A stretch of DNA of 22,007 bases from IMG/VR virus record IMGVR_UViG_3300045738_000612, positions 1 to 22,007 of that record; one strand, given 5' to 3'. Numbering within the stretch: the stretch's first letter is position 1; every line of letters begins with the position of its first letter. The notes below the pieces were generated by a model. The model ran no database searches. It had not been told where the DNA came from and was given only the letters and a program-made list of their open reading frames with translations. Below, piece by piece: positions 34 through 17,578 of the stretch. A program made the position numbers and the translations under genes. The DNA comes from a virus.

Positions 34-693
34 ATGTGTGATCCTGTAACGCTTGTCGGTGCCTCTCCTATTATGGCTGGCTTTGTTCCCTCTGTGGGAA
101 CTATCGGACTTTTCGGTGCTGGCGGCTCATTTGGCCTGGGAGCCGGATCCCTGTTCGGGGCCGGGACATTCGGCGCGGGTATGGGTATTGGCGCGGCTGC
201 GCCAAGCAGTTTTGGCCTTGGCTCTCTTTTCCAGTTGGGGTCGTTTTTTGTACAGGGTTTCGGCGCTATCCGCCAAGGCCAGTTTTATGAAGGCCAAGCC
301 GAGCAGTCAGCCCGGATTGCGGAGTTCAACGCCAGGGTTGCTGAGAATGACGCCATCATGGCGCGCCAAGCGGAGCAACTGGACAACGACAGGACTGATG
401 ATCTCAGGAAACGGATTGCGTCCGCCGCGCAAACCAGTTTTACCAAGTCGGGTGTTGTTATCAATATTGATACGCCCTTGGCTATCCAGGAGCGGATTGC
501 AACGGATGCTGCGGAAGATCAATTCAACCGCACCTTTGTTGCCGATCAGCAAGTTGCCGCTGCCAGAGTGCGCGCAGCCGGGGGCCGTGCGTCAGCCACC
601 AATTTCCGGATTACGGGCCAACAGGCGGTAACCTCATCCAGGCTGAAGGCTATAGGCGCGGCGTTCAAGGTTGGCGAGAGTTTGTTGGCGTAA
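34..693 (+). CDS. internal virion protein, T7 gp14-like position
   Basis: The protein has 219 residues. Residues 1-75 are rich in Gly, Ala, Phe and Leu and look membrane-active (GLFGAGG, GLGSLFQLG). Residues 80-135 form an Ala/Glu/Arg-rich helix with coiled-coil character, and the rest is mixed helix. A short hydrophobic N-terminus followed by a helical body is typical of small internal virion proteins of podophages, which form part of the ejection channel. It is the first of four overlapping genes that precede the tail fibre, the position of gene 14 in T7. The call rests on composition and gene order, not on a motif. The start is ATG with a weak GGGTGA ribosome site. A long ORF in another frame inside it (53-631) is a shadow. 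Confidence 0.6.
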   Translation: MCDPVTLVGASPIMAGFVPSVGTIGLFGAGGSFGLGAGSLFGAGTFGAGMGIGAAAPSSFGLGSLFQLGSFFVQGFGAIRQGQFYEGQAEQSARIAEFNARVAENDAIMARQAEQLDNDRTDDLRKRIASAAQTSFTKSGVVINIDTPLAIQERIATDAAEDQFNRTFVADQQVAAARVRAAGGRASATNFRITGQQAVTSSRLKAIGAAFKVGESLLA

Positions 694-2372
694 TGGCACA
701 GATCAAGACATACCAGCAGAGGCAAGGCCTCCCGACTGAGACGGGCGTCCAACTTCAAGTCACTCCGGCCCAGAGCAATGTCGGGACTTCACTGTTTGAG
801 TTAGGCACCCAGTTCGGCCAGATCGGGGAGCGTCTGGACCTTGCCCAGGACAACCGGGACATCTCGACCTCGACGCTTAACGCGACGGTCAAATTGCAAG
901 ACCTGGAGACGGAACTGTCAACGGCGGATCCTCGGATTGCAAGGGGTTCCTACCAGGGCCGCGCCGATCAGATTTTCCAGGAGGCCTCTGGAGGGTTGAG
1001 CGGCAGGGCGCTGGACAAGTTCACTCAAAATTTCAATCAGTTGTCTATCAAATCACGGTTCTCCGTCAAATCAGCCAGCGTTACGCGCCACCGGCAGCAG
1101 TTGGAGGGAGGGCTGGAGACAACGCTTGCCGGGTTGGTTCGAGCAGCTGGCAACAGCCAAATGTTGCCGACGAGGAATGGGGTGCAGATCGCCAAGGGTG
1201 ACATCATCAAGACCGGCATGACCGACATCGACGCTATGGTGGATCAGGGCGTCATCAAGGCTGATTGGGCGGCTAGGAGAAAGTTGAAGTTTCTTAAAAA
1301 TGTCGCCGGGGCCGGGATCAGTTCCAAGCTCCGCAAGTCATCTCTGGAGGATCTCGGCACATTGATAACTGAGATGAGTACCGATAGTATTACAGATGCG
1401 GAGGTTGCGGACTACTGGAAACAGTTGAATGAAAAGGAGAAGCTGGATTTTCAAAAGAAAGTTATGTCAACCCATGAGATCCAGTTGAATATTATAGAGA
1501 AGCAACAGACCAGGAACGTGGCGGGGCTTCAGCGCAAGTATGACAGGAATTACGGCAAACATATGAACAAGATTCTTTTAGCCCATGAAGATCCCGATAA
1601 TAATGAAATGCCGACCAGCATTGAGATCACTAAAGCCCTGGCTGATGATGATATCGGTGCCACTGAATATAACAAACTGAAAGTGGCGCTGGTCAATAGT
1701 GATCCAGCTGGCAGCAGCCAGCCATATATTACCGGTATTATGAGACGGATCAGGATCGCCCCTAATGAGGCTGCGATCAAAACCATCATCGAGGAAATGG
1801 AGACTACTACTGGGCCTACAGGCAAGCTGCGGTTCGAGCATTTCAAAATTCTGGAACAGCGCGCCCAGGCACAGATCAACAAAACACCGTCAGCAAAACG
1901 CGCCAATATTTACAGCAAGGCTCTCGATAAAATTCTCGCCTCTACCGATTTTATGGACTCGGTCATTCCTGGGGTCAAAGAGCGCGGCGCGAGGGTCAGA
2001 ATTGATTTTGAGGGGCGGCTTGCTGATGGCGCGAATGATCCTAATTTTGATCCCGCCGAGGCGTTTACCGAGGCCCTGGAGGCGTTCCGGACCAGAGGCA
2101 CCATTAACATCAATGCGATCCCCCGGCCTCAGTTCGGCCCTGCTAAGAAACTCAATGATTGGACCCTCAAAGAGGTTAATGATGCGATAGCGGAAACTAA
2201 AATCAAATTCAAAGGCAAGACCAATACTCTCACCTCTCAACTGGATATTCTTATTTCCCTCTCTGCTTATTTGGGGGCTAAGGGAAAAGCTATTGGTGAT
2301 GCTGAATCTCAGGATGAAAAAGCCGGGACTATCAAATCTCGTCTTAAAAAGGCCTATGAGGGAGAAGATTAA
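693..2372 (+). CDS. large helical internal virion / ejection protein, T7 gp15-like position
   Basis: The protein has 559 residues, is almost entirely polar and helical, and has no signal peptide and no clear membrane segment. The N-terminus (residues 1-60) is rich in Gln and Thr; the rest alternates charged helices. I recognise no catalytic motif. The start codon overlaps the previous stop as TAATG, so translation is probably coupled. It lies between a gp14-like protein and two larger proteins with Gly/Ala-rich membrane-like segments, just before the tail fibre, which is where podophages encode their ejected core proteins. The role in DNA ejection is inferred from order and architecture only. 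Confidence 0.55.
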   Translation: MAQIKTYQQRQGLPTETGVQLQVTPAQSNVGTSLFELGTQFGQIGERLDLAQDNRDISTSTLNATVKLQDLETELSTADPRIARGSYQGRADQIFQEASGGLSGRALDKFTQNFNQLSIKSRFSVKSASVTRHRQQLEGGLETTLAGLVRAAGNSQMLPTRNGVQIAKGDIIKTGMTDIDAMVDQGVIKADWAARRKLKFLKNVAGAGISSKLRKSSLEDLGTLITEMSTDSITDAEVADYWKQLNEKEKLDFQKKVMSTHEIQLNIIEKQQTRNVAGLQRKYDRNYGKHMNKILLAHEDPDNNEMPTSIEITKALADDDIGATEYNKLKVALVNSDPAGSSQPYITGIMRRIRIAPNEAAIKTIIEEMETTTGPTGKLRFEHFKILEQRAQAQINKTPSAKRANIYSKALDKILASTDFMDSVIPGVKERGARVRIDFEGRLADGANDPNFDPAEAFTEALEAFRTRGTININAIPRPQFGPAKKLNDWTLKEVNDAIAETKIKFKGKTNTLTSQLDILISLSAYLGAKGKAIGDAESQDEKAGTIKSRLKKAYEGED

Positions 2373-4222
2373 TGGCTGAACCCGCCAGAATACCCATCCC
2401 AGGCCCAGAGGCTCCCCTCACCGGGGAACTCCTCACCGGGGAACTCCTCACCGGGGAACCCGTCAGCCGTGATCCCTTGACCATCCGCATCGCTCCAGAG
2501 ACAACTGATCCAGAGACACTGCCGGTTCCGGGACAACTGCAAAGTGATCCTGTCAATATGTCACCGGATTTTGATGCCGAGGCGGCTGATGTCCCGACGG
2601 GCAATGATATGATTGTTGATTTTGGCGCGTCGCGCCCTCCTGAGGGATCTTCACCGGAGACTTTCAGCCTGATCGAGAGCATGGGATATGACGCCGATTA
2701 TGTTATCAGCAAGAACATAGAGATTGACGCGACGGCCAAGGATAAGCCGCCGCCGATAACGGAAACCACCCTGGCTGATCCCAATGATAAGGCGGGGTCC
2801 TTGTTCATCGAGTCAGCGAAAATTCTAATGCCCCTGTTCCCGGATCGTTTTCCGGGTGATGATAAGGATCCGGCTCAGTGGGGCCTGGAGTTCATGGGCT
2901 GGTTCAACTTTAATTTGCCATCAATGGGAATGTCACTTCACAAGATCCAGAGTGCGCCTGATAATCAGAAGCTGGCCCTTCTCTACATGATGGAACTTTA
3001 CATCGAAAAAGACATCACCTGGGACGGGACCAAGCGCGCCCTTACTGCAATTGTCCAAGATCCCACCACCTATGTAGGCCTTGGAACCTTTGGGTTCGGG
3101 GCGTTCCTTGGAGCCTCGGCCAAGCAAGCCACGAAGGCGGGAGTGATGTCGGCGCTCAGAGCGTCCCTGCCAGCGACAAAACTCGGCGCGTTGGAGGGCG
3201 CGCTGTATGGCGGCGTCCAGAACATCATGGAGCAAAAGGTCAAGATCGAGGGGGGCAGACAAGAGGAATTGGATCTTCGTGAGGCGGCGCTTGTCTCAGG
3301 AGTCGGTGCCTTTGCAGCTGGCGGCTTTACCGCTGGCCTTGGCGTTACAGGCAAACTCGCCAAGGATGCAGTTATCGGTGCAATCGGGAGGATACGCTCA
3401 CGTCAAGCATCCGGCGGGACGCCGTTGCGAGCTAAAAACGCATCCGAGGCTGGCCTAGCGCCCATAATCTCGCCAAAAGAGACGGCCCCTTCCGGGGGAG
3501 GTTCCCAATTATTGCCAACCCAGACCTCAATTATGGCACCACCGTCTGGTGTCTCAGAGATCTTGGCAAGCACCCCGCCTAAGTTGCGCGGCGCGTATAA
3601 ACCTTCATTTGATGACATTGATATAATCCTATCCAACAAGATTTATCATTTTAATAATGATCTTACAACCCTACTTGAATTGGCGAATGCTCATAAGGCG
3701 CTTCTGAAGGGGGATCTTGATGATATTGCCACCGAAATCCCAGGAATTGTGGCTTTCAAACTAGGGCCTAGAATCAAGAAAAAGCAATCCCTTCTGAAGA
3801 AAATGAAAATCAAGGAAATAGAGCCAAATCAACTATCTGATCTTCTCGGAGGCCGGTTGGTTGCTGATAATCTGGACGCCATAGAGTTGGTGAAAGCAAG
3901 GTTGAATGATGGTTTCAGTATTATTGAGATTGATGATTTTCATCTAAGGCCGAAAGGGGGATATCGGGCAACCCATATCCAGATCATGTCAGACAGTGGG
4001 CTTTCGATAGAAATCCAGGCACAAGTCAAGGAAATACGCGCCGTCCAAGATGGAGTACACAAGAAATATTATGAACCCTGGAAAGGCAAACGTATCAAAA
4101 TTGATTCCCCGGAACATAAGCGCATGAAAATCGACCATGCAAAGGGAGAGGTCATTTTTAATGCCGCCTGGAATAGGTATCTAAAGAGAACGGGGGGTGA
4201 AACATTAAACAATGGCGGTTGA
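2372..4222 (+). CDS. virion-associated protein with C-terminal RelA/SpoT-like domain
   Basis: The protein has 616 residues in three parts. Residues 1-130 are Pro/Glu/Thr-rich and disordered, with an LTGEL repeat. Residues 130-350 are helical with Gly/Ala-rich membrane-like stretches near 235-265 and 305-330, as in podophage ejection proteins. After a low-complexity linker, residues about 413-580 match the RelA/SpoT nucleotidyltransferase fold: R467/K469 and S473 with K476 (like R-x-K...S...K of RelA), D490 and R495 in DLLGGR, G530-Y531 with H535 in GYRATH, E547-I-Q549 (the catalytic Glu motif) and H563 before KYYEPW. The Asn usual before Gly-Tyr is Gly529. Family members make or break (p)ppGpp, and toxSAS members can make ppApp or pyrophosphorylate tRNA; which applies here is unknown. 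TAATG overlap upstream, 11-base overlap downstream. Delivery into the host with the virion is inferred. Confidence 0.75.
   Translation: MAEPARIPIPGPEAPLTGELLTGELLTGEPVSRDPLTIRIAPETTDPETLPVPGQLQSDPVNMSPDFDAEAADVPTGNDMIVDFGASRPPEGSSPETFSLIESMGYDADYVISKNIEIDATAKDKPPPITETTLADPNDKAGSLFIESAKILMPLFPDRFPGDDKDPAQWGLEFMGWFNFNLPSMGMSLHKIQSAPDNQKLALLYMMELYIEKDITWDGTKRALTAIVQDPTTYVGLGTFGFGAFLGASAKQATKAGVMSALRASLPATKLGALEGALYGGVQNIMEQKVKIEGGRQEELDLREAALVSGVGAFAAGGFTAGLGVTGKLAKDAVIGAIGRIRSRQASGGTPLRAKNASEAGLAPIISPKETAPSGGGSQLLPTQTSIMAPPSGVSEILASTPPKLRGAYKPSFDDIDIILSNKIYHFNNDLTTLLELANAHKALLKGDLDDIATEIPGIVAFKLGPRIKKKQSLLKKMKIKEIEPNQLSDLLGGRLVADNLDAIELVKARLNDGFSIIEIDDFHLRPKGGYRATHIQIMSDSGLSIEIQAQVKEIRAVQDGVHKKYYEPWKGKRIKIDSPEHKRMKIDHAKGEVIFNAAWNRYLKRTGGETLNNGG
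2417..2460 (+). repeat. 15-bp tandem repeat, three copies, inside a gene
   Basis: The unit CTCACCGGGGAACTC occurs three times head to tail, the last copy lacking its final base. It encodes LTGEL-LTGEL-LTGEP in the disordered N-terminus of the RelA/SpoT-domain protein. The exact identity between copies suggests recent slippage. Copy number changes would keep the reading frame. Confidence 0.9.
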
Positions 4223-7199
4223 TCCTTCTGGCGCTCTGATCCCCGATGCCGATGCGGCTCCCGATCCTGGGATGTTCGACGGCCTGATCAACGTCCCCAT
4301 CGTTGACAGTGATGCTATGGGTGTTGATGAACAGCCGATGGTGTCGGAGGAGGGCATCCAGGTTGCCGGTCCTATGGGCAAGCTGGGGGCCGACATAGGC
4401 TCCGGCGTTGCGCGTGTTTTCGGGAAAACGCTGGCCGAGGCCAGGAAAAAATCACTCGATCCGGAGTTCAAGGCCAAGAAAGCAGAACGGGAACCGAGCA
4501 TGTTCGATATGCCCGGAGAGCCGGAGGCCCCCCCAGCAAAGCCAGAGGCTCCGGATCCGGAGACTACGGGGCCGGTGATCAAGGAACTTAGTGAGGACGC
4601 CGGGTTGCCTCCGGCAGCGCCTGGAACGCCGGATCGGTTCAAGACGGCTGATCCTTATGAGAATTATATCCGAATAGGTGAGGAGGACGTTGCCGCTGCT
4701 TTGGAGCCGCCCCCCTTCAAGAAGGGCCAGGGGCTGTCCGACTTCAATGCCAAGAACCTCCCTGATGAGGCCAGCATCCAGGCGCGGATCGAACTGAACA
4801 GCCAACGGTTCGCCGGTAAGATTGACGAAGCGAAACGTGAGAAAATTACGTTTGAGGCCACTCAGCAACTGAGTAACCTGATTGGCATGTCGCCCAAGAA
4901 GTTGGCAGCGGCGATCCTCAAGCGACAGACAGGCCAGGGGATCCATGTCGAGGGCAAGGGCATGGCTGAAACCATGCTTGCCGCCAGGGATCTCCTGGTG
5001 TTGGAGATGCGGAAGCTGGACGGGCTGGCCGAGATTGCAAAGACCGGCAGCGATGAGCAAGCTATGGCGTTCCGATATCAGTTGGAACTTGTTGCCAATC
5101 TGCAAAAAAACATCAAAGGCGCGCAAACCGAGATAGCCAGATCCCTCGGGGCCATGCGGATTCCGGCGACGGGCGCGCCCAGAGATCCCGCCCTGGCAGC
5201 CGAGTTCGCAGCCAGGAGCAAGCGGGACCTAACGATGATGCTGGGCGATTACGGCGGTGCCGACAACGTCAGGACGATGGCTGATCTTTATAGCCGCACC
5301 GGAGCGCCGCATAAGAAAAGTGCCTTTATCAAAGGCATGGGCAAAGCGCGCCTTGTGGGAGATGCGATCTATGAGGTCTGGCAGCATGCCCTGTTGACCA
5401 ATATTGTTTCGCAGACAAAAAACATTCTCGGCAACATTCTAACTATGTTCATCTCCGACGTCGAGACGGCTGGCGCGGCTGCTATTGGAACTGCGCGCCG
5501 CGCAATGGGTGGTGAGGGCGGCACTACGTTTGGTGATCTCAACGCCAAGATTTTCGGGCAGACCATGTCATTCATGTCAGCCCTCAAATACGCCGGTCAG
5601 TCATTTGCCACGGGCAAGAGCATCATTCCCGGCACCAAGATCGACAGCGCCCAGGGGGCTGGCCGGAAGCATATGAATGCAGCCAGTGGTGAGGCATTTG
5701 GCGCAACCGGCGCACTGGCAACGGGGATTGATGTTATCGGTACTATCGCCACCGGAGGGCGGGTGGCCTTCCGCGCCCTAGAATTTGGCGATACTTTTTT
5801 CAAAGTGCTGGCGGCTCAAGGCAAGACCTGGGAGGAGGCAATGTCTGCCGGTCAGGCCAGGGGCCTCAAGGGAGAGGCGCTGTCGGATTTCATTGCCGAC
5901 TTTGTCAACGACCCTCCAGTGTATGTTATGGAGCGGTCAGCTGCCGAGGCAAGATATGTAACCTTGCAGACGGAACTTGACGCTGTTGGCAAGGGGTTCA
6001 AGGTACTCCAGAACATCCCCGGTATGCGCTGGCTGGTGCCGTTTCTAAAAACGCCTTACAACAGTTTCAAGTGGTCATTTATCGACAGGACGCCCCTCGG
6101 CCTGTTCTGGGGGGATACGGCCAGAAAGATCCGCGCCGGGGGCCGGGAAGCTGAAGAGGCAATAGCCAGGGTTTCCGTTGGAACCAGTATGGCGACAGTT
6201 GCAACAATGCTGACCTACAGCGGCGTGATCACCGGAGGCGGTCCCGTCAGCAGGGGAGAGCGCGCTACGGATCGACGCTTGGGGATCCAGAATTACAGCT
6301 GGAGAATTGGCGATCAATATTATAGCTATGCGGGAACGGAGCCTTTCGCCTCAGTAATCGGCATTTGGGCCGATGTAGGGCAAATCATGGCGTCAGGCCA
6401 TTTAAAGACGGAGGAGGAGCGCGGTGAGTTGTTTGCCGCCGCCCTGGCCGGGACCGCTCACAACATGACCAACAAGTCATTCATGCAGGGGTTTGCGACA
6501 TTCATCGAGGCTACCAGTGATCCGAATCGCTATTCAAAGAGCATGATGAAAAACCTGATCCGTTCCGTTGTGCCGAGGCTGGCCTCTCAGATTGAGCGGA
6601 TCAATGATCCAACGATCCGGGAAGCGCGGTCATATGTTGATGAAATCATAGCCCAGATCCCTGGGCTGTCATCTATTCTAAAGCCTCGCGTTGACCTGTG
6701 GGGCCGGGACGCCAAGATAGGCATCCCGACGCCGGGAGGGGGAACCAATCTCGCTTTTGGACCTGACATCGTCTCCCCGATTTTTGTGTCCCGGTATAAG
6801 CCCAATCCTGTTGACCTGGAACTCAAAAGGATGAAGGTCAAGCTATCTCCCCCGACAGACGCCCTGTTATATCCGGGGATGGAGGAGCCAATGAGATTGA
6901 CGGATGATCAGCGTTATTGGTATCAACAGACAGCTGGCAAGTTGTCATTTAAAAGGCTCTCCGCTTTCGTCGGAAGTGATGATTACAAGCAACTGAAAAA
7001 GCAATCAGAAAAGGGAAATATTTTTGTCACCGAATTGCTAACCAACAAAATCAGGGGCATCCACACCCTTACAAAGAAAGAGGCGGAAGGGCTGCTTATT
7101 AATGATAGTGAGTTTTCTGAAAGCTTAATGGAACGGATAACATCAATTCTTGAACTTGAAGCGGAAGTGAAAGCGCAACAGACGGGACAAATCCAATGA
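4212..7199 (+). CDS. large internal virion / ejection protein, T7 gp16-like position
   Basis: The protein has 995 residues. Residues 1-150 are acidic and Pro-rich (probably disordered). Residues 150-340 are charged helices. From about 370 to 520 there are Gly/Ala-rich, weakly hydrophobic segments. Residues about 600-630 carry IPGMRWLVPF, LKTPYN and DRTPLGLF, which resemble the aromatic, proline-containing core of the large polyvalent (LPD38-like) domains of phage ejection proteins. A hydrophobic segment follows at about 655-677. No lysozyme or lytic transglycosylase motif was found. The gene is the last of the ejection set, and its stop overlaps the fibre start as ATGA. In T7 the corresponding gp16 spans the cell envelope during ejection; the same role here is inferred. 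Confidence 0.65.
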   Translation: MAVDPSGALIPDADAAPDPGMFDGLINVPIVDSDAMGVDEQPMVSEEGIQVAGPMGKLGADIGSGVARVFGKTLAEARKKSLDPEFKAKKAEREPSMFDMPGEPEAPPAKPEAPDPETTGPVIKELSEDAGLPPAAPGTPDRFKTADPYENYIRIGEEDVAAALEPPPFKKGQGLSDFNAKNLPDEASIQARIELNSQRFAGKIDEAKREKITFEATQQLSNLIGMSPKKLAAAILKRQTGQGIHVEGKGMAETMLAARDLLVLEMRKLDGLAEIAKTGSDEQAMAFRYQLELVANLQKNIKGAQTEIARSLGAMRIPATGAPRDPALAAEFAARSKRDLTMMLGDYGGADNVRTMADLYSRTGAPHKKSAFIKGMGKARLVGDAIYEVWQHALLTNIVSQTKNILGNILTMFISDVETAGAAAIGTARRAMGGEGGTTFGDLNAKIFGQTMSFMSALKYAGQSFATGKSIIPGTKIDSAQGAGRKHMNAASGEAFGATGALATGIDVIGTIATGGRVAFRALEFGDTFFKVLAAQGKTWEEAMSAGQARGLKGEALSDFIADFVNDPPVYVMERSAAEARYVTLQTELDAVGKGFKVLQNIPGMRWLVPFLKTPYNSFKWSFIDRTPLGLFWGDTARKIRAGGREAEEAIARVSVGTSMATVATMLTYSGVITGGGPVSRGERATDRRLGIQNYSWRIGDQYYSYAGTEPFASVIGIWADVGQIMASGHLKTEEERGELFAAALAGTAHNMTNKSFMQGFATFIEATSDPNRYSKSMMKNLIRSVVPRLASQIERINDPTIREARSYVDEIIAQIPGLSSILKPRVDLWGRDAKIGIPTPGGGTNLAFGPDIVSPIFVSRYKPNPVDLELKRMKVKLSPPTDALLYPGMEEPMRLTDDQRYWYQQTAGKLSFKRLSAFVGSDDYKQLKKQSEKGNIFVTELLTNKIRGIHTLTKKEAEGLLINDSEFSESLMERITSILELEAEVKAQQTGQIQ

Positions 7200-9520
7200 C
7201 AGTATCCTCAACAACGACATCAGTTTCATATACGGGAGATGCCTCGACAACCGACTTTGCCGTGACCTTCCCGTTTTTGGGTACCGGCTCATCAAGTGAG
7301 TTGACCGTTGTTGAGCGCGTCATTGCAACCGGAGCCGAAACCACGAAATCCTACACCTCACACTTCACGGTAACAGGTGGAGATGGTGAAACCGGCACCG
7401 TGATTGCCGCATCAGCCCCGGCATCCACCGTCCAATGGCATATTCGACGCAACACTACGGCCACACAGACGACGGATTATGTTACCAACGATCCATTCGC
7501 TGCTGATACATTTGAATTATCTCTTGACCGCCTAGCTATGTCAGGCCAGGAGCGTGACGGGGATATATCTCAGGCGTTCTCATTCCCCGACACCTACACC
7601 GGCGGCGCGTCCACCACATTTCCTGAGCCGGTAGCCAATGCATACCTACTTTATAATGCTGCCGCTGATGCGCTGACCACCTCAGATTCCAGTGCCGCTC
7701 AATACCTGGGCGGGAATGGCACGGTGTCTTTGCCGTTTTATTCTTACTCCTCCGATCCAAATTCTGGGGCCTACCGAATAGGCGCCGACAACATTGGCTG
7801 GGCCGTCAACGGCGTAAAGGGTCTTGATCTATCCACCTCAGGTCTGGCCGTCACCGGGACACTGGCGGCAACTGCAATTACCGGCTCCGGCATCCTCTCA
7901 ATCGATGACACTACTGAAAGCAGCAGTACCACCACAGGCTCCGTTCACGCCGACGGCGGCCTTGGGGTCGCCAAAAAACTATACGTTGGGGGCATAACCA
8001 CTCACGGCGCTGATGTCCTATCTGATACCGACAGCACGGACAGTCTGGGATCGACAGGGGTCCGGTGGCTCAAGCTGTGGGTTGATAGCATACAGACAAC
8101 GGCTAACCTGGATGTTGCGGGATCGGTAGTTATCACCGGATCCCTTACCGTTAACGGGACGACGATCACGAACGATGCTACTAACACCACTATTAAAGAC
8201 CCACTCATCGAATTAAATTCTGGTGCTGGTTCAAATGCCAACGATCTCGGGTTCATTTTCGAGCGGGGTTCAACAGGGAATAATGCGTTCCTGGGTTGGG
8301 ACGAATCGGGCGATTTCTTTGCCGCTGGTACAACCACCGCCACTGGCGCTTCAACTGGAAACATAACGTATTCCTTCGCACCGTTTAAATGCAGTGCGAT
8401 TACGGCAACATCAGGCACGTTGGCGGGTTTAACCTCAATCGCTATGGCGGCTGGCGCGACCCTAACCGCCGGGTTCCTCGATGAAGATGATATGAGTAGT
8501 AATTCAGCCGTTGCTGGAGTCACCCAACAATCAATCAAGGCATACGTCGATAATAATGCTCCTGAGAATGGCGTTAAGTTCGCATTTGAAAGTACTACTA
8601 CGGACACGGATCAGGGCGTTGGGAAGGTCTGGTTGAACAACGGCACTCCCTCAAGCGCAACAGTTCTCTATGTCGATGACGTTGAGGCCGGTAGTGTTAG
8701 CGTCAACGCATGGGTTGACACCTGGGATGATGTCAGTAATGCCGTCGCAAGAGGGTATGTTTATATTGCCAGCTATGGCACGACCAATGCCATCCTTGTT
8801 TTTAAAGTTACCGGTGCAGTCACATCCGCCAGCACCTATTCTAAGGTTGCCGTCACTCATGTTCTAACTGTTGGCACTATTAGCGACGGTGACAACATTG
8901 GCCTGACGTTTGTGCCATCAGGTGTAGACGGCTCTGGCGACATGAGCGATTTGGTGGACGACACAACTCCGCAACTCGGCGGCTTCCTCGACACGAACTC
9001 CAAATTTATCAGCCATGCCCAGGGCGCTGCCATCGCCTCTGTTGCTGGTGACACAAACATATGGACAAACTTCGACGGCAACACAGTCCACATCACTGGA
9101 ACTAATGCCATCACTGATTTTGGAACCCCAAAGAGTGCTGGCGATTCCATGTGGGTAATCTTCGATGCCGCCGCATCTGTCGTCGATAGTGCCACGATTA
9201 CCGTAGCAGGAAACACCAACTATCAGGCGGCAGCAAATGACCTTGCCCTTGTCTACGCCTTAACAACAAGCACCTTCCTGTTTATGCCCTTTCCTAATAG
9301 TGGGGCATCTCCCGTAGCTGCTGCTGGTGGTGGTGGTTGGTTAGGTGAAAGTGGCAGTCCACTAGGTACTAGTGCCGATATCGTTCGCGTGAATGAACAG
9401 ACATTGAACAACAGTATCTCTATAGTCGGCACGGATAATGCCAGTGCCACTGGTCCCCTGGCGATTGCTTCTGGAATAACGGTGACGGTTTCCAGTGGCG
9501 CGACTTTTGCAGTTATCTAA
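7196..9520 (+). CDS. tail fibre protein
   Basis: The protein has 774 residues, very rich in Ser, Thr, Gly, Ala and Asp and poor in Cys and Lys, which is typical of trimeric beta-structured fibres. Residues 1-130 form the attachment-type N-terminal domain seen in podophage fibres: it begins with YTGDASTTDFAVTFPF, then strands around WHIRRNT and the NDPFAADTFE segment. Repeated beta units follow (SGLAVTGTL, SVVITGSLTVNGTTI). The shaft is interrupted by a more globular region near 455-600, and a Gly-rich AAAGGGGW stretch near residue 705 leads to the C-terminal tip. The start overlaps the previous stop by four bases. It follows the ejection genes as gene 17 does in T7. Its receptor cannot be predicted. 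Confidence 0.8.
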   Translation: MTVSSTTTSVSYTGDASTTDFAVTFPFLGTGSSSELTVVERVIATGAETTKSYTSHFTVTGGDGETGTVIAASAPASTVQWHIRRNTTATQTTDYVTNDPFAADTFELSLDRLAMSGQERDGDISQAFSFPDTYTGGASTTFPEPVANAYLLYNAAADALTTSDSSAAQYLGGNGTVSLPFYSYSSDPNSGAYRIGADNIGWAVNGVKGLDLSTSGLAVTGTLAATAITGSGILSIDDTTESSSTTTGSVHADGGLGVAKKLYVGGITTHGADVLSDTDSTDSLGSTGVRWLKLWVDSIQTTANLDVAGSVVITGSLTVNGTTITNDATNTTIKDPLIELNSGAGSNANDLGFIFERGSTGNNAFLGWDESGDFFAAGTTTATGASTGNITYSFAPFKCSAITATSGTLAGLTSIAMAAGATLTAGFLDEDDMSSNSAVAGVTQQSIKAYVDNNAPENGVKFAFESTTTDTDQGVGKVWLNNGTPSSATVLYVDDVEAGSVSVNAWVDTWDDVSNAVARGYVYIASYGTTNAILVFKVTGAVTSASTYSKVAVTHVLTVGTISDGDNIGLTFVPSGVDGSGDMSDLVDDTTPQLGGFLDTNSKFISHAQGAAIASVAGDTNIWTNFDGNTVHITGTNAITDFGTPKSAGDSMWVIFDAAASVVDSATITVAGNTNYQAAANDLALVYALTTSTFLFMPFPNSGASPVAAAGGGGWLGESGSPLGTSADIVRVNEQTLNNSISIVGTDNASATGPLAIASGITVTVSSGATFAVI

Positions 9521-10419: not shown

Positions 10420-10821
10420 ATGGAAAACTTTGTAGCAATTGTTAAAAGTACGGACGGCAAACTGCACAAGTACAAAGACTTTGCCGTTGAGGCTGATGCT
10501 GTCAGTCACGTTGCGACTTATGGCGGCTTCGTTGTCCCTGATCCCGGTGGTAATACAAGTTATTGGGTCGTGGATGCAGAGGCTCAGACGGTTACCAACA
10601 ACCAAGATCAAGCTGATGCTGACACCCTCGCAAGAAGTTGGACTTTTCTTCGTAGAGAACGTAATGCCTTGTTAGTTTCCAGCGATTGGACGCAAGGCGC
10701 TGATTCGCCTCTTACGGATGAAGCTAAGGCTGAATGGGCAACGTATCGGGAAACACTGAGAAACCTCCCTGCCAACACACCTGACCCTGCTAACCCAACG
10801 TGGCCGACGCCGCCAGAATAA
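10420..10821 (+). CDS. tail fibre assembly chaperone, copy 1
   Basis: The protein has 133 residues. The C-terminal half (about 68-133) has the pattern of the phage tail assembly chaperone family (Phage_tail_APC type): RRERNALL, SDWTQ, DSPL, EW-x2-YRETLRNLP and WPTPP. The N-terminal half is a separate small domain (MENFVAIVKSTDG). Such proteins usually sit next to a fibre gene and help that fibre fold or attach, as here. The ribosome site is GGAAGGAAC before ATG. The C-terminal domain is closely similar to that of the protein at 11585-11881, so the module has been duplicated. Confidence 0.75.
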   Translation: MENFVAIVKSTDGKLHKYKDFAVEADAVSHVATYGGFVVPDPGGNTSYWVVDAEAQTVTNNQDQADADTLARSWTFLRRERNALLVSSDWTQGADSPLTDEAKAEWATYRETLRNLPANTPDPANPTWPTPPE

Positions 10822-11584: not shown

Positions 11585-11881
11585 ATGATGCCAAGATATA
11601 GAGCAACATCTAGCGGCCCTGTTCAGTTATCCGCTGAACGAGAAACCCAACGTGATGCTGAAGAGGCAACTTGGGAAGAAGAGGGGCCAGCACGGGCGAT
11701 GGCTAGGCTTCGTGCAGAGCGTAACACCCTGTTAACCGAAACCGATTGGACTCAATACAACGACTCGCCAATGGCAGATGAGGTCAAGGCTGAGTGGACT
11801 GTGTACCGTGAGTCACTTCGCGACCTACCAGCTAACACCGACGATCCCGCTGATCCGACTTGGCCCACTCCACCGGGGTGA
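11585..11881 (+). CDS. tail fibre assembly chaperone, copy 2
   Basis: The protein has 98 residues and consists almost wholly of the chaperone domain. RAERNTLL, TDWTQ, DSPM, EW-x2-YRESLRDLPANT and DPTWPTPP match copy 1 nearly position for position, whereas the N-terminus (RYRATSSGPVQL) differs. ATGATG occurs at the start, and either Met may be used; AAGGAT lies just upstream. It probably serves the 247-residue fibre-like protein encoded immediately before it. Confidence 0.75.
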   Translation: MMPRYRATSSGPVQLSAERETQRDAEEATWEEEGPARAMARLRAERNTLLTETDWTQYNDSPMADEVKAEWTVYRESLRDLPANTDDPADPTWPTPPG

Positions 11882-16918: not shown

Positions 16919-17578
16919 TTACCTCCTTTCAACTCTCTCGATGATCAACTTGACCTGTTGCGGGTGCCAAACAGGGCGTCCTGAGGGCGTCGAGATCTTG
17001 CGCTCAGTCAGTTCTTGGGCGATCCCCCGCAGTGAAGTCACTCCGAATTTCTTGATCCGCTCGATGACGGGATAGACGTTCTCAGCAATCTCGTTTGCCT
17101 TGAGGGTGCGCGCTGCTCGACCAGCTGCTGCGACTGCCCTGATGTTCTTGCTCCCCAGTTTTTTACCCTTGGCCTTGAGAGCGGCCAGGGCGGCTTTGGT
17201 GCGCTCGGAGATCTTGACTCTCTCCAGTTCCGCGACAGCTGCAATGATATGGACGTTGAAACGGTCAGCCACCGGCATGTCGGCAATGGTGATCTCAACC
17301 TCACTCTCCAGGAGGACGGCGATCTGCGCGACAGATCTGCCCAGCCGGTCAACCTTGGCAACCAGGAGCGCCGCCTTTTCTTTCCGGCATAGTTCCAGAG
17401 CAGCCATCAACTCGGGCCGGTCATCCTTGCTCCCACTCTCAACCTCGGAGAACTCAGCCAGGATCTCCGCGCCTCGCGCAGCCGCCAGATCCTCGACGGC
17501 TTTGCGCTGCGCTTCCATACCCAAGCCAGCGATCCCCTGCTTATCAGTGGAAACTCTGAGATAAGTGACGTATTTCAT
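16919..17578 (-). CDS. small serine recombinase (resolvase/invertase superfamily)
   Basis: The protein has 219 residues. The catalytic domain (1-145) has YVTYLRVSTDKQ with R8 and the nucleophile S10, KVDRLGRS (77-82) and the E helix with ELERVKISERT. The C-terminal part (about 155-219) has the short DNA-binding segment common in proteobacterial members: VTSLRGIAQELTERKISTPSG followed by W. It is too short for a large serine integrase and has no zinc ribbon. It may resolve, invert or integrate DNA; no matching sites were found. The ATG overlaps the upstream stop as ATGA, so it is co-translated with the recombination operon. Confidence 0.85.
   Translation of the reverse strand: MKYVTYLRVSTDKQGIAGLGMEAQRKAVEDLAAARGAEILAEFSEVESGSKDDRPELMAALELCRKEKAALLVAKVDRLGRSVAQIAVLLESEVEITIADMPVADRFNVHIIAAVAELERVKISERTKAALAALKAKGKKLGSKNIRAVAAAGRAARTLKANEIAENVYPVIERIKKFGVTSLRGIAQELTERKISTPSGRPVWHPQQVKLIIERVERR

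Follow-up and report, generated by a model that had tools for sequence, protein, structure and literature searches.

The first half of a split ejection-type protein, encoded at the gp16 position of a T7-like phage, ends in an exchangeable cargo slot, as comparison with its relatives shows, and in the phage analysed here this slot is occupied by a domain of the RelA/SpoT synthetase type. The window, i.e. the whole stretch of DNA that was analysed, is 22,007 nucleotides long (IMG/VR record IMGVR_UViG_3300045738_000612) and the features discussed below are located in Table 1. The evidence is computational and comprises the fold, the catalytic residues, the slot itself, its swapping among relatives and the foreign composition of the cassette. 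On this basis, the 616-amino acid protein is probably a virion-borne effector carrier, in which a body belonging to the ejection machinery is followed by a C-terminal slot bearing a 3'-pyrophosphokinase of the small-alarmone-synthetase kind.

Table 1. Location of the carrier, its cargo and other features in the window
Feature	Position	Strand	Details and basis
gp14-like internal virion protein	34..693	+	phrog_418, E 1.3e-7
Protein in gp15 position	693..2372	+	559 aa; position only, weak profile hits
First half of split gp16-position ejection-type protein, bears cargo	2372..4222	+	616 aa; ORF, Pfam, homologues
Short tandem repeat coding for GELLT, near carrier N-terminus	about 2420..2462	+	
Conserved carrier body, Gly/Ala-rich	2654..3337	+	residues about 95-322
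Low-complexity linker, body to cargo	3338..3601	+	residues about 323-410; sequence
RelA/SpoT synthetase-like cargo, low G+C	3602..4219	+	residues 411-616; profile, model, fold match
Second half, gp16C-like internal virion protein	4212..7199	+	995 aa; phrog_6651 'internal virion protein', E 3.9e-25
Phage_tail_APC (tail-assembly-chaperone domain), first of two separate genes	10420..10821	+	
Phage_tail_APC, second gene	11585..11881	+	
Serine recombinase	16919..17578	-	Resolvase, E 3.9e-28

The presence of a RelA/SpoT-like domain at the C-terminus had been proposed in an earlier note on this DNA, which placed it at 3608-4180; this corresponds to residues 413-603 and is right for the domain. Pfam PF04607 (RelA_SpoT) is matched over residues 467-563 of the protein (E 5.9e-9, 36.6 bits for a cutoff of 27). 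The ten catalytic landmarks named in the note (R467, K469, S473, K476, D490, R495, Y531, H535, E547 and Q549) are all present at their positions and include the synthetase catalytic set Asp, Arg, Tyr-x3-His, Glu-x-Gln (D490, R495, Y531, H535, E547 and Q549). When aligned with E. coli RelA, the landmark positions show the same residue or a residue of the same class (phmmer E 0.016, a match that is weak alone). A profile built from the cargo domain and its phage relatives retrieved the Streptococcus synthetase 2be3 (E 3e-5) together with other synthetases. The AlphaFold2 model of residues 411-616 has a mean pLDDT of 79.9 and a pTM of 0.71; its input alignment included 8 sister RelA-type tails (see below), of which the model is thus not independent. 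The top PDB match for this model was RelP in Foldseek (6fgj, E 3.6e-9), and VIA-align superposed it on RelP 6ewz_A with a Z of 15.2 (rmsd 3.5, 174 residues), on SaSAS with 13.4, on Tas1 with 12.7, on CapRel with 12.0 and, more weakly, on FaRel2 with 7.9. Because VIA-align rows no more than 1 Z apart count as tied, the substrate is not fixed by the fold. With profile and predicted fold both far beyond chance, we assign a RelA/SpoT synthetase domain to the 616-amino acid protein; these same statistics rule out a chance motif match. A long RSH protein (Rel, RelA or SpoT) was also considered and rejected: RelA_SpoT is the sole domain above cutoff in the protein, and there is no HD_4 domain in the 22-kb window. 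The matches to NCBIfam synthetase models scored far under the curated cutoffs and were set aside.

The genes around the carrier are those expected of an ejection-protein locus, in line with the setting that the note had suggested, virion status being given by context only. The gene order gp14-gp15-gp16-tail fibre matches that of T7, with gp15 assigned by order only, and the gp14-like and gp16C-like products are recognised by profile (Table 1). In a tblastn search, the gp16C neighbour matched 41 of 50,697 phage records, many of which are labelled internal virion protein. The body (query residues 145-301) is matched, at 42% over 157 amino acids, by the N-terminal part of gp47 of phage LUZ100, 'internal virion D', an assignment made by its authors through synteny (PMC10134795). 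The gp16-position protein is one chain in LUZ100 and two ORFs in this phage. Neither the body nor the gp16C neighbour showed similarity to T7 gp16 with small or large profiles (hhalign probability about 0.2 per cent). Gene order and the names of the matched profiles are what the gp16 equivalence is based on, and it is this genomic context, and not homology to T7 gp16, that supports the predicted role in ejection well. The linker that separates body and cargo appears by eye to be rich in Gly, Pro, Ser and Ala. One weak match to phrog_342, in the relative L089 (E 6e-4), sits over a low-complexity stretch and was discarded.

Relatives were collected with the gp16C neighbour and the body as queries, the two large surveys consisting of the best 80 of 186 and the best 80 of 85 relatives. 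At least 144 body-bearing ORFs were found, of which at least 108 are distinct. Among the 108 distinct ORFs listed, 51 are followed by a separate gp16C ORF, 38 are fused to gp16C and 19 are unsorted, the latter including fragments and divergent unsplit proteins. The tails of the 51 listed split ORFs are of several kinds: 29 are large and linked to each other by BLAST, 19 are RelA/SpoT-like (including that of this phage) and 3 are singletons (L003, L089 and L143). The L003 tail is a Zeta toxin (Pfam 2.7e-11); the cargo of L089, a close relative of this phage, is 313 amino acids long (ORF 6113-8008) and gave no Pfam match at 0.01. The Pfam scan took in 19 of the 29 large tails: DUF7178 is above cutoff in 4 (L093, L098, L099 and L137) and below cutoff in L006 and L092, ART-PolyVal is below cutoff in 2 (L095 and L100) and the other 11 have no match at 0.01. 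The 616-amino acid protein itself contains one recognised Pfam domain. The body is common to homologues bearing Zeta, ART, DUF7178 and RelA tails and to LUZ100 gp47. Searches with the whole 616-amino acid protein yielded a single match among phage records, the LUZ100 body, and no close relative in viral contigs; 4 matches to the body were obtained in bacterial genome contigs, all of them unsplit long ORFs. Several unsplit homologues (L073, L076, L078, L079 and the fragment L075) have a longer gap between body and gp16C (418 amino acids in L073). The tail of the L075 fragment looks ADP-ribosyltransferase-like by eye and has no Pfam match.

The clearest case of swapping is provided by L093, L100 and L109, which combine near-identical bodies with unrelated tails. 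The three proteins share 88-93% identity over residues 1 to about 340, and the DNA before the cargo is 94.7% identical between L093 and L100 and 93.3% identical between L100 and L109. No BLASTP similarity was found among the three tails (about 380, 548 and 728 residues, respectively). Similarity resumes 24 bases before the stop codon in both pairs, at 93.8% for L093/L100 and at 96.8% over 346 bases for L100/L109, the latter pair being 85.8% identical further into gp16C.

The position of this phage among its relatives was analysed with a tree of the 51 listed gp16C proteins (IQ-TREE quick, SH-aLRT support only), which form 34 clusters at 90% identity, 7 of them RelA-type. This phage pairs with the Zeta phage L003 (SH-aLRT 98), then with L089 (97) and then with L005 (100). 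None of these three has a RelA tail, and the other 18 RelA rows lie elsewhere in the tree. The RelA label, assigned by tail length in agreement with the profile hits, requires 3 changes on the tree, at least 2 of them via well-supported branches. L003 is also the nearest gp16C relative among the matches listed: the gp16C proteins are 73.5% identical and the bodies 44% identical, and the cargo is the Zeta toxin. The cassette has a G+C content of 0.419, lower than that of the body (0.564), the linker (0.576) and the next gene (0.557); among the 2956 cassette-length segments of the late operon, only 7 are as low, all of them on the cassette. We propose that this cassette, whose foreign composition these figures show, was recently acquired. 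When the RelA domain alone was used as query, it found no close relative in viral contigs (i.e. it is a singleton) and only the provirus Nvie-Pro1 among phage records. A plasmid search gave one archaeal record.

As to packaging, ejection, activity, product and benefit, we infer the following course of events. In a T7-like podovirus, the carrier body would be part of the ejection machinery, within a gp16-position protein that is split in two genes; the carrier would be packed in the head and go along with the ejection complex as the DNA enters. The cargo would reach the cytoplasm, a plausible destination by analogy with T7 gp16, the C-terminal part of which is located in the host cytoplasm (review PMC8954989). 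There, it would use ATP as the pyrophosphate donor for a nucleotide acceptor, GDP or GTP being the likeliest, which would yield (p)ppGpp; the alternative acceptors would be ATP/ADP or tRNA CCA ends. Host transcription and translation would be damped during takeover or during the choice between lysis and lysogeny. The cargo motifs DLLGGR and GYRATH are nearer to the guanosine type (A-V-R, SxH) than to the adenosine type (RYT, GxN) as described in PMC12226406; syn2 and syn3 lean towards the guanosine type, whereas syn4 (EIQAQ) is unlike the IR that is usual in that type. These motifs are a weak basis for predicting the product, because motif exchange was reported to leave specificity unchanged (PMC12226406).

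A wider reading, which we put forward tentatively, is that the whole class of T7-like phages with a split gp16-position protein may use its first half as a dedicated injected-effector carrier. Cassettes (at least two alarmone-synthetase lineages, a Zeta-toxin kinase, an ADP-ribosyltransferase-like one, DUF7178 and several uncharacterised ones) would swap as units without immunity genes and, in the present case, a (p)ppGpp-type synthetase would enter with the DNA and set the stringent-response state of the host before phage gene expression. If this is true, the ejection machinery of short-tailed phages itself contains a slot through which exchangeable effectors are delivered, much as in the polymorphic toxins of MuF or T6SS type, and the setting of host alarmone levels by a phage at DNA entry becomes testable. 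The tails found at the slot, the uncharacterised ones included, can be listed as candidate effectors of early infection.

The cargo ORF and the gp16C ORF share 11 bases, so that an immunity gene has no space between them, and neither an HD_4 hydrolase nor a Panacea antitoxin was found in the 22-kb window (the record is a fragment). Therefore, either the phage would tolerate the enzyme while its virions are made or the enzyme would be latent or weak. A standard toxin-antitoxin module was rejected, since there is no partner gene, the next gene being the overlapping gp16C, and no Panacea match in the window. The same observations bear on a use as a polymorphic toxin like MuF-Apk2, where the injected enzyme would poison competing cells or bring them to a halt, also when the infection is abortive, and so favour the lysogens of the phage. 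The constant carrier with its swappable, toxin-like C-terminal domains fits such a use, and so does the serine recombinase gene, which suggests that the phage is temperate, MuF toxins being tied to temperate phages (PMC5576092). However, Apk2 loci possess downstream immunity genes, iapK and aph1 (PMC12226406), whereas the next gene here overlaps the cargo ORF and the window lacks both HD_4 and Panacea; we consider this explanation unlikely. That no immunity gene lies next to the cargo makes manipulation of the host slightly more likely than the killing of competitors. The MuF-Apk2 toxins, which belong to temperate phages, otherwise resemble the present case: a toxin domain of RelA/SpoT fold forms the C-terminal end of a virion protein that is otherwise constant and bears other toxin domains in relatives (PMC12226406; PMC5576092). 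The differences are that the MuF carrier is encoded beside the portal gene, whereas a T7-like ejection-type carrier beside gp14 and gp16C is found here (virion status by context), that this phage is without an adjacent immunity gene and that its motifs are nearer to the guanosine type. No MuF domain was matched in the 616-amino acid protein up to an E-value of 1 (Pfam).

The domain could also be a counter-defence cargo and not a poison, directed against the alarmone or toxSAS defences of the host, for instance by serving as a decoy for CapRel-type systems or by competing with them. The resemblance of its fold to CapRel, a PADLOC match to PDC-S33 (E 8e-7) and the other cargoes of the slot (ART-PolyVal-like, DUF7178), among them a family that takes its name from phage conflict proteins, are consistent with this; the retention of the catalytic residues is, however, expected of an enzyme and not of a decoy, and we regard this explanation as more doubtful still.

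The sister RelA-type tails gave no Pfam match to PF04607 in the 5 that were scanned. They are linked to the domain of this phage by BLAST (E 8e-7 to 5e-5 for the 9 listed) and by hhalign (probability 88, E 2.9e-6), and their predicted structure matches RelQ (5dec_B, Z 16.1) and Tas1 (Z 14.6), so that several tests point to a shared RelA/SpoT fold. A profile comparison of these tails with the PDB placed Tas1, an active (p)ppApp synthetase, first (E 0.0035). Their motifs (DIVRAG, GYFDRK, ELQI) differ from the canonical ones; with respect to the motif descriptions in PMC12226406, syn2 leans towards the adenosine type and syn3 fits neither type. The dN/dS ratio is below 1 in 8 out of 8 pairs of sister tails (about 0.05-0.42), so that the domain is kept in these tails by purifying selection. 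That the tails of the 18 other listed split homologues stray from the canonical motifs would agree with the reuse of a degenerate synthetase fold as a mere nucleic-acid- or protein-binding module of the ejection complex, but this is highly improbable, given that all ten landmarks are kept in the domain of this phage, that relatives replace the domain by unrelated sequences, so that the fold is not structurally required, and that the variant tails resemble Tas1.

For a carrier of an injected synthetase, as we interpret the protein, there are several precedents. The note had held that a RelA/SpoT domain in this setting appears to be unusual; this calls for correction as far as virion proteins are concerned, since MuF toxins with RelA-like domains (PMC5576092), MuF-Apk2 (p)ppApp synthetases (PMC12226406) and phage polyvalent proteins with RelA/SpoT domains (PMC5512222) have been published, as have exported alarmone synthetases (PMC12691689). 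The polyvalent proteins (RelA/SpoT, ART, Zeta, ddrB-ParB) share with the present case the idea of an injected effector and an overlapping cargo repertoire (PMC5512222), but differ in that here each carrier has one recognised cargo, in a fixed slot of a split ejection protein; the terms 'internal virion', 'ejected' and 'Autographivir' are absent from the main text of PMC5512222. RelP and RelQ and the exported SaSAS and SaEAS have the fold and catalytic residues of the cargo, but are stand-alone or secreted bacterial enzymes, and toxSAS (FaRel2, CapRel) and Tas1 have its fold and include toxic family members, but are toxin-antitoxin modules or a T6SS effector. T4 Alt, N4 vRNAP and P1 DarA/DarB likewise enter the cell with the phage DNA as enzymes or effectors (PMC8402733); enzymes and carriers are unrelated to those described here. 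A limited search of the open-licence literature found no paper on RelA/SpoT domains in T7-like ejection proteins; within its scope, the enzyme class and the idea of a virion toxin are known, and the carrier and the directly demonstrated swap slot are new.

RelA/SpoT-like domains were also encountered in other viral contexts. The thaumarchaeal provirus Nvie-Pro1 encodes a Rel_Spo-like domain (Pfam E 3.8e-20) in its gene 6 (L202, 3285-3917), which lies between the portal and the protease/major capsid genes; this 230-amino acid frame differs from the present protein in its carrier and virus group. Ten viral contigs without the body (L192-L201) have RelA-like stretches in large proteins (1120-2174 amino acids, some cut by contig ends), of which that of L192 also has ddrB-ParB and that of L198 GNAT.
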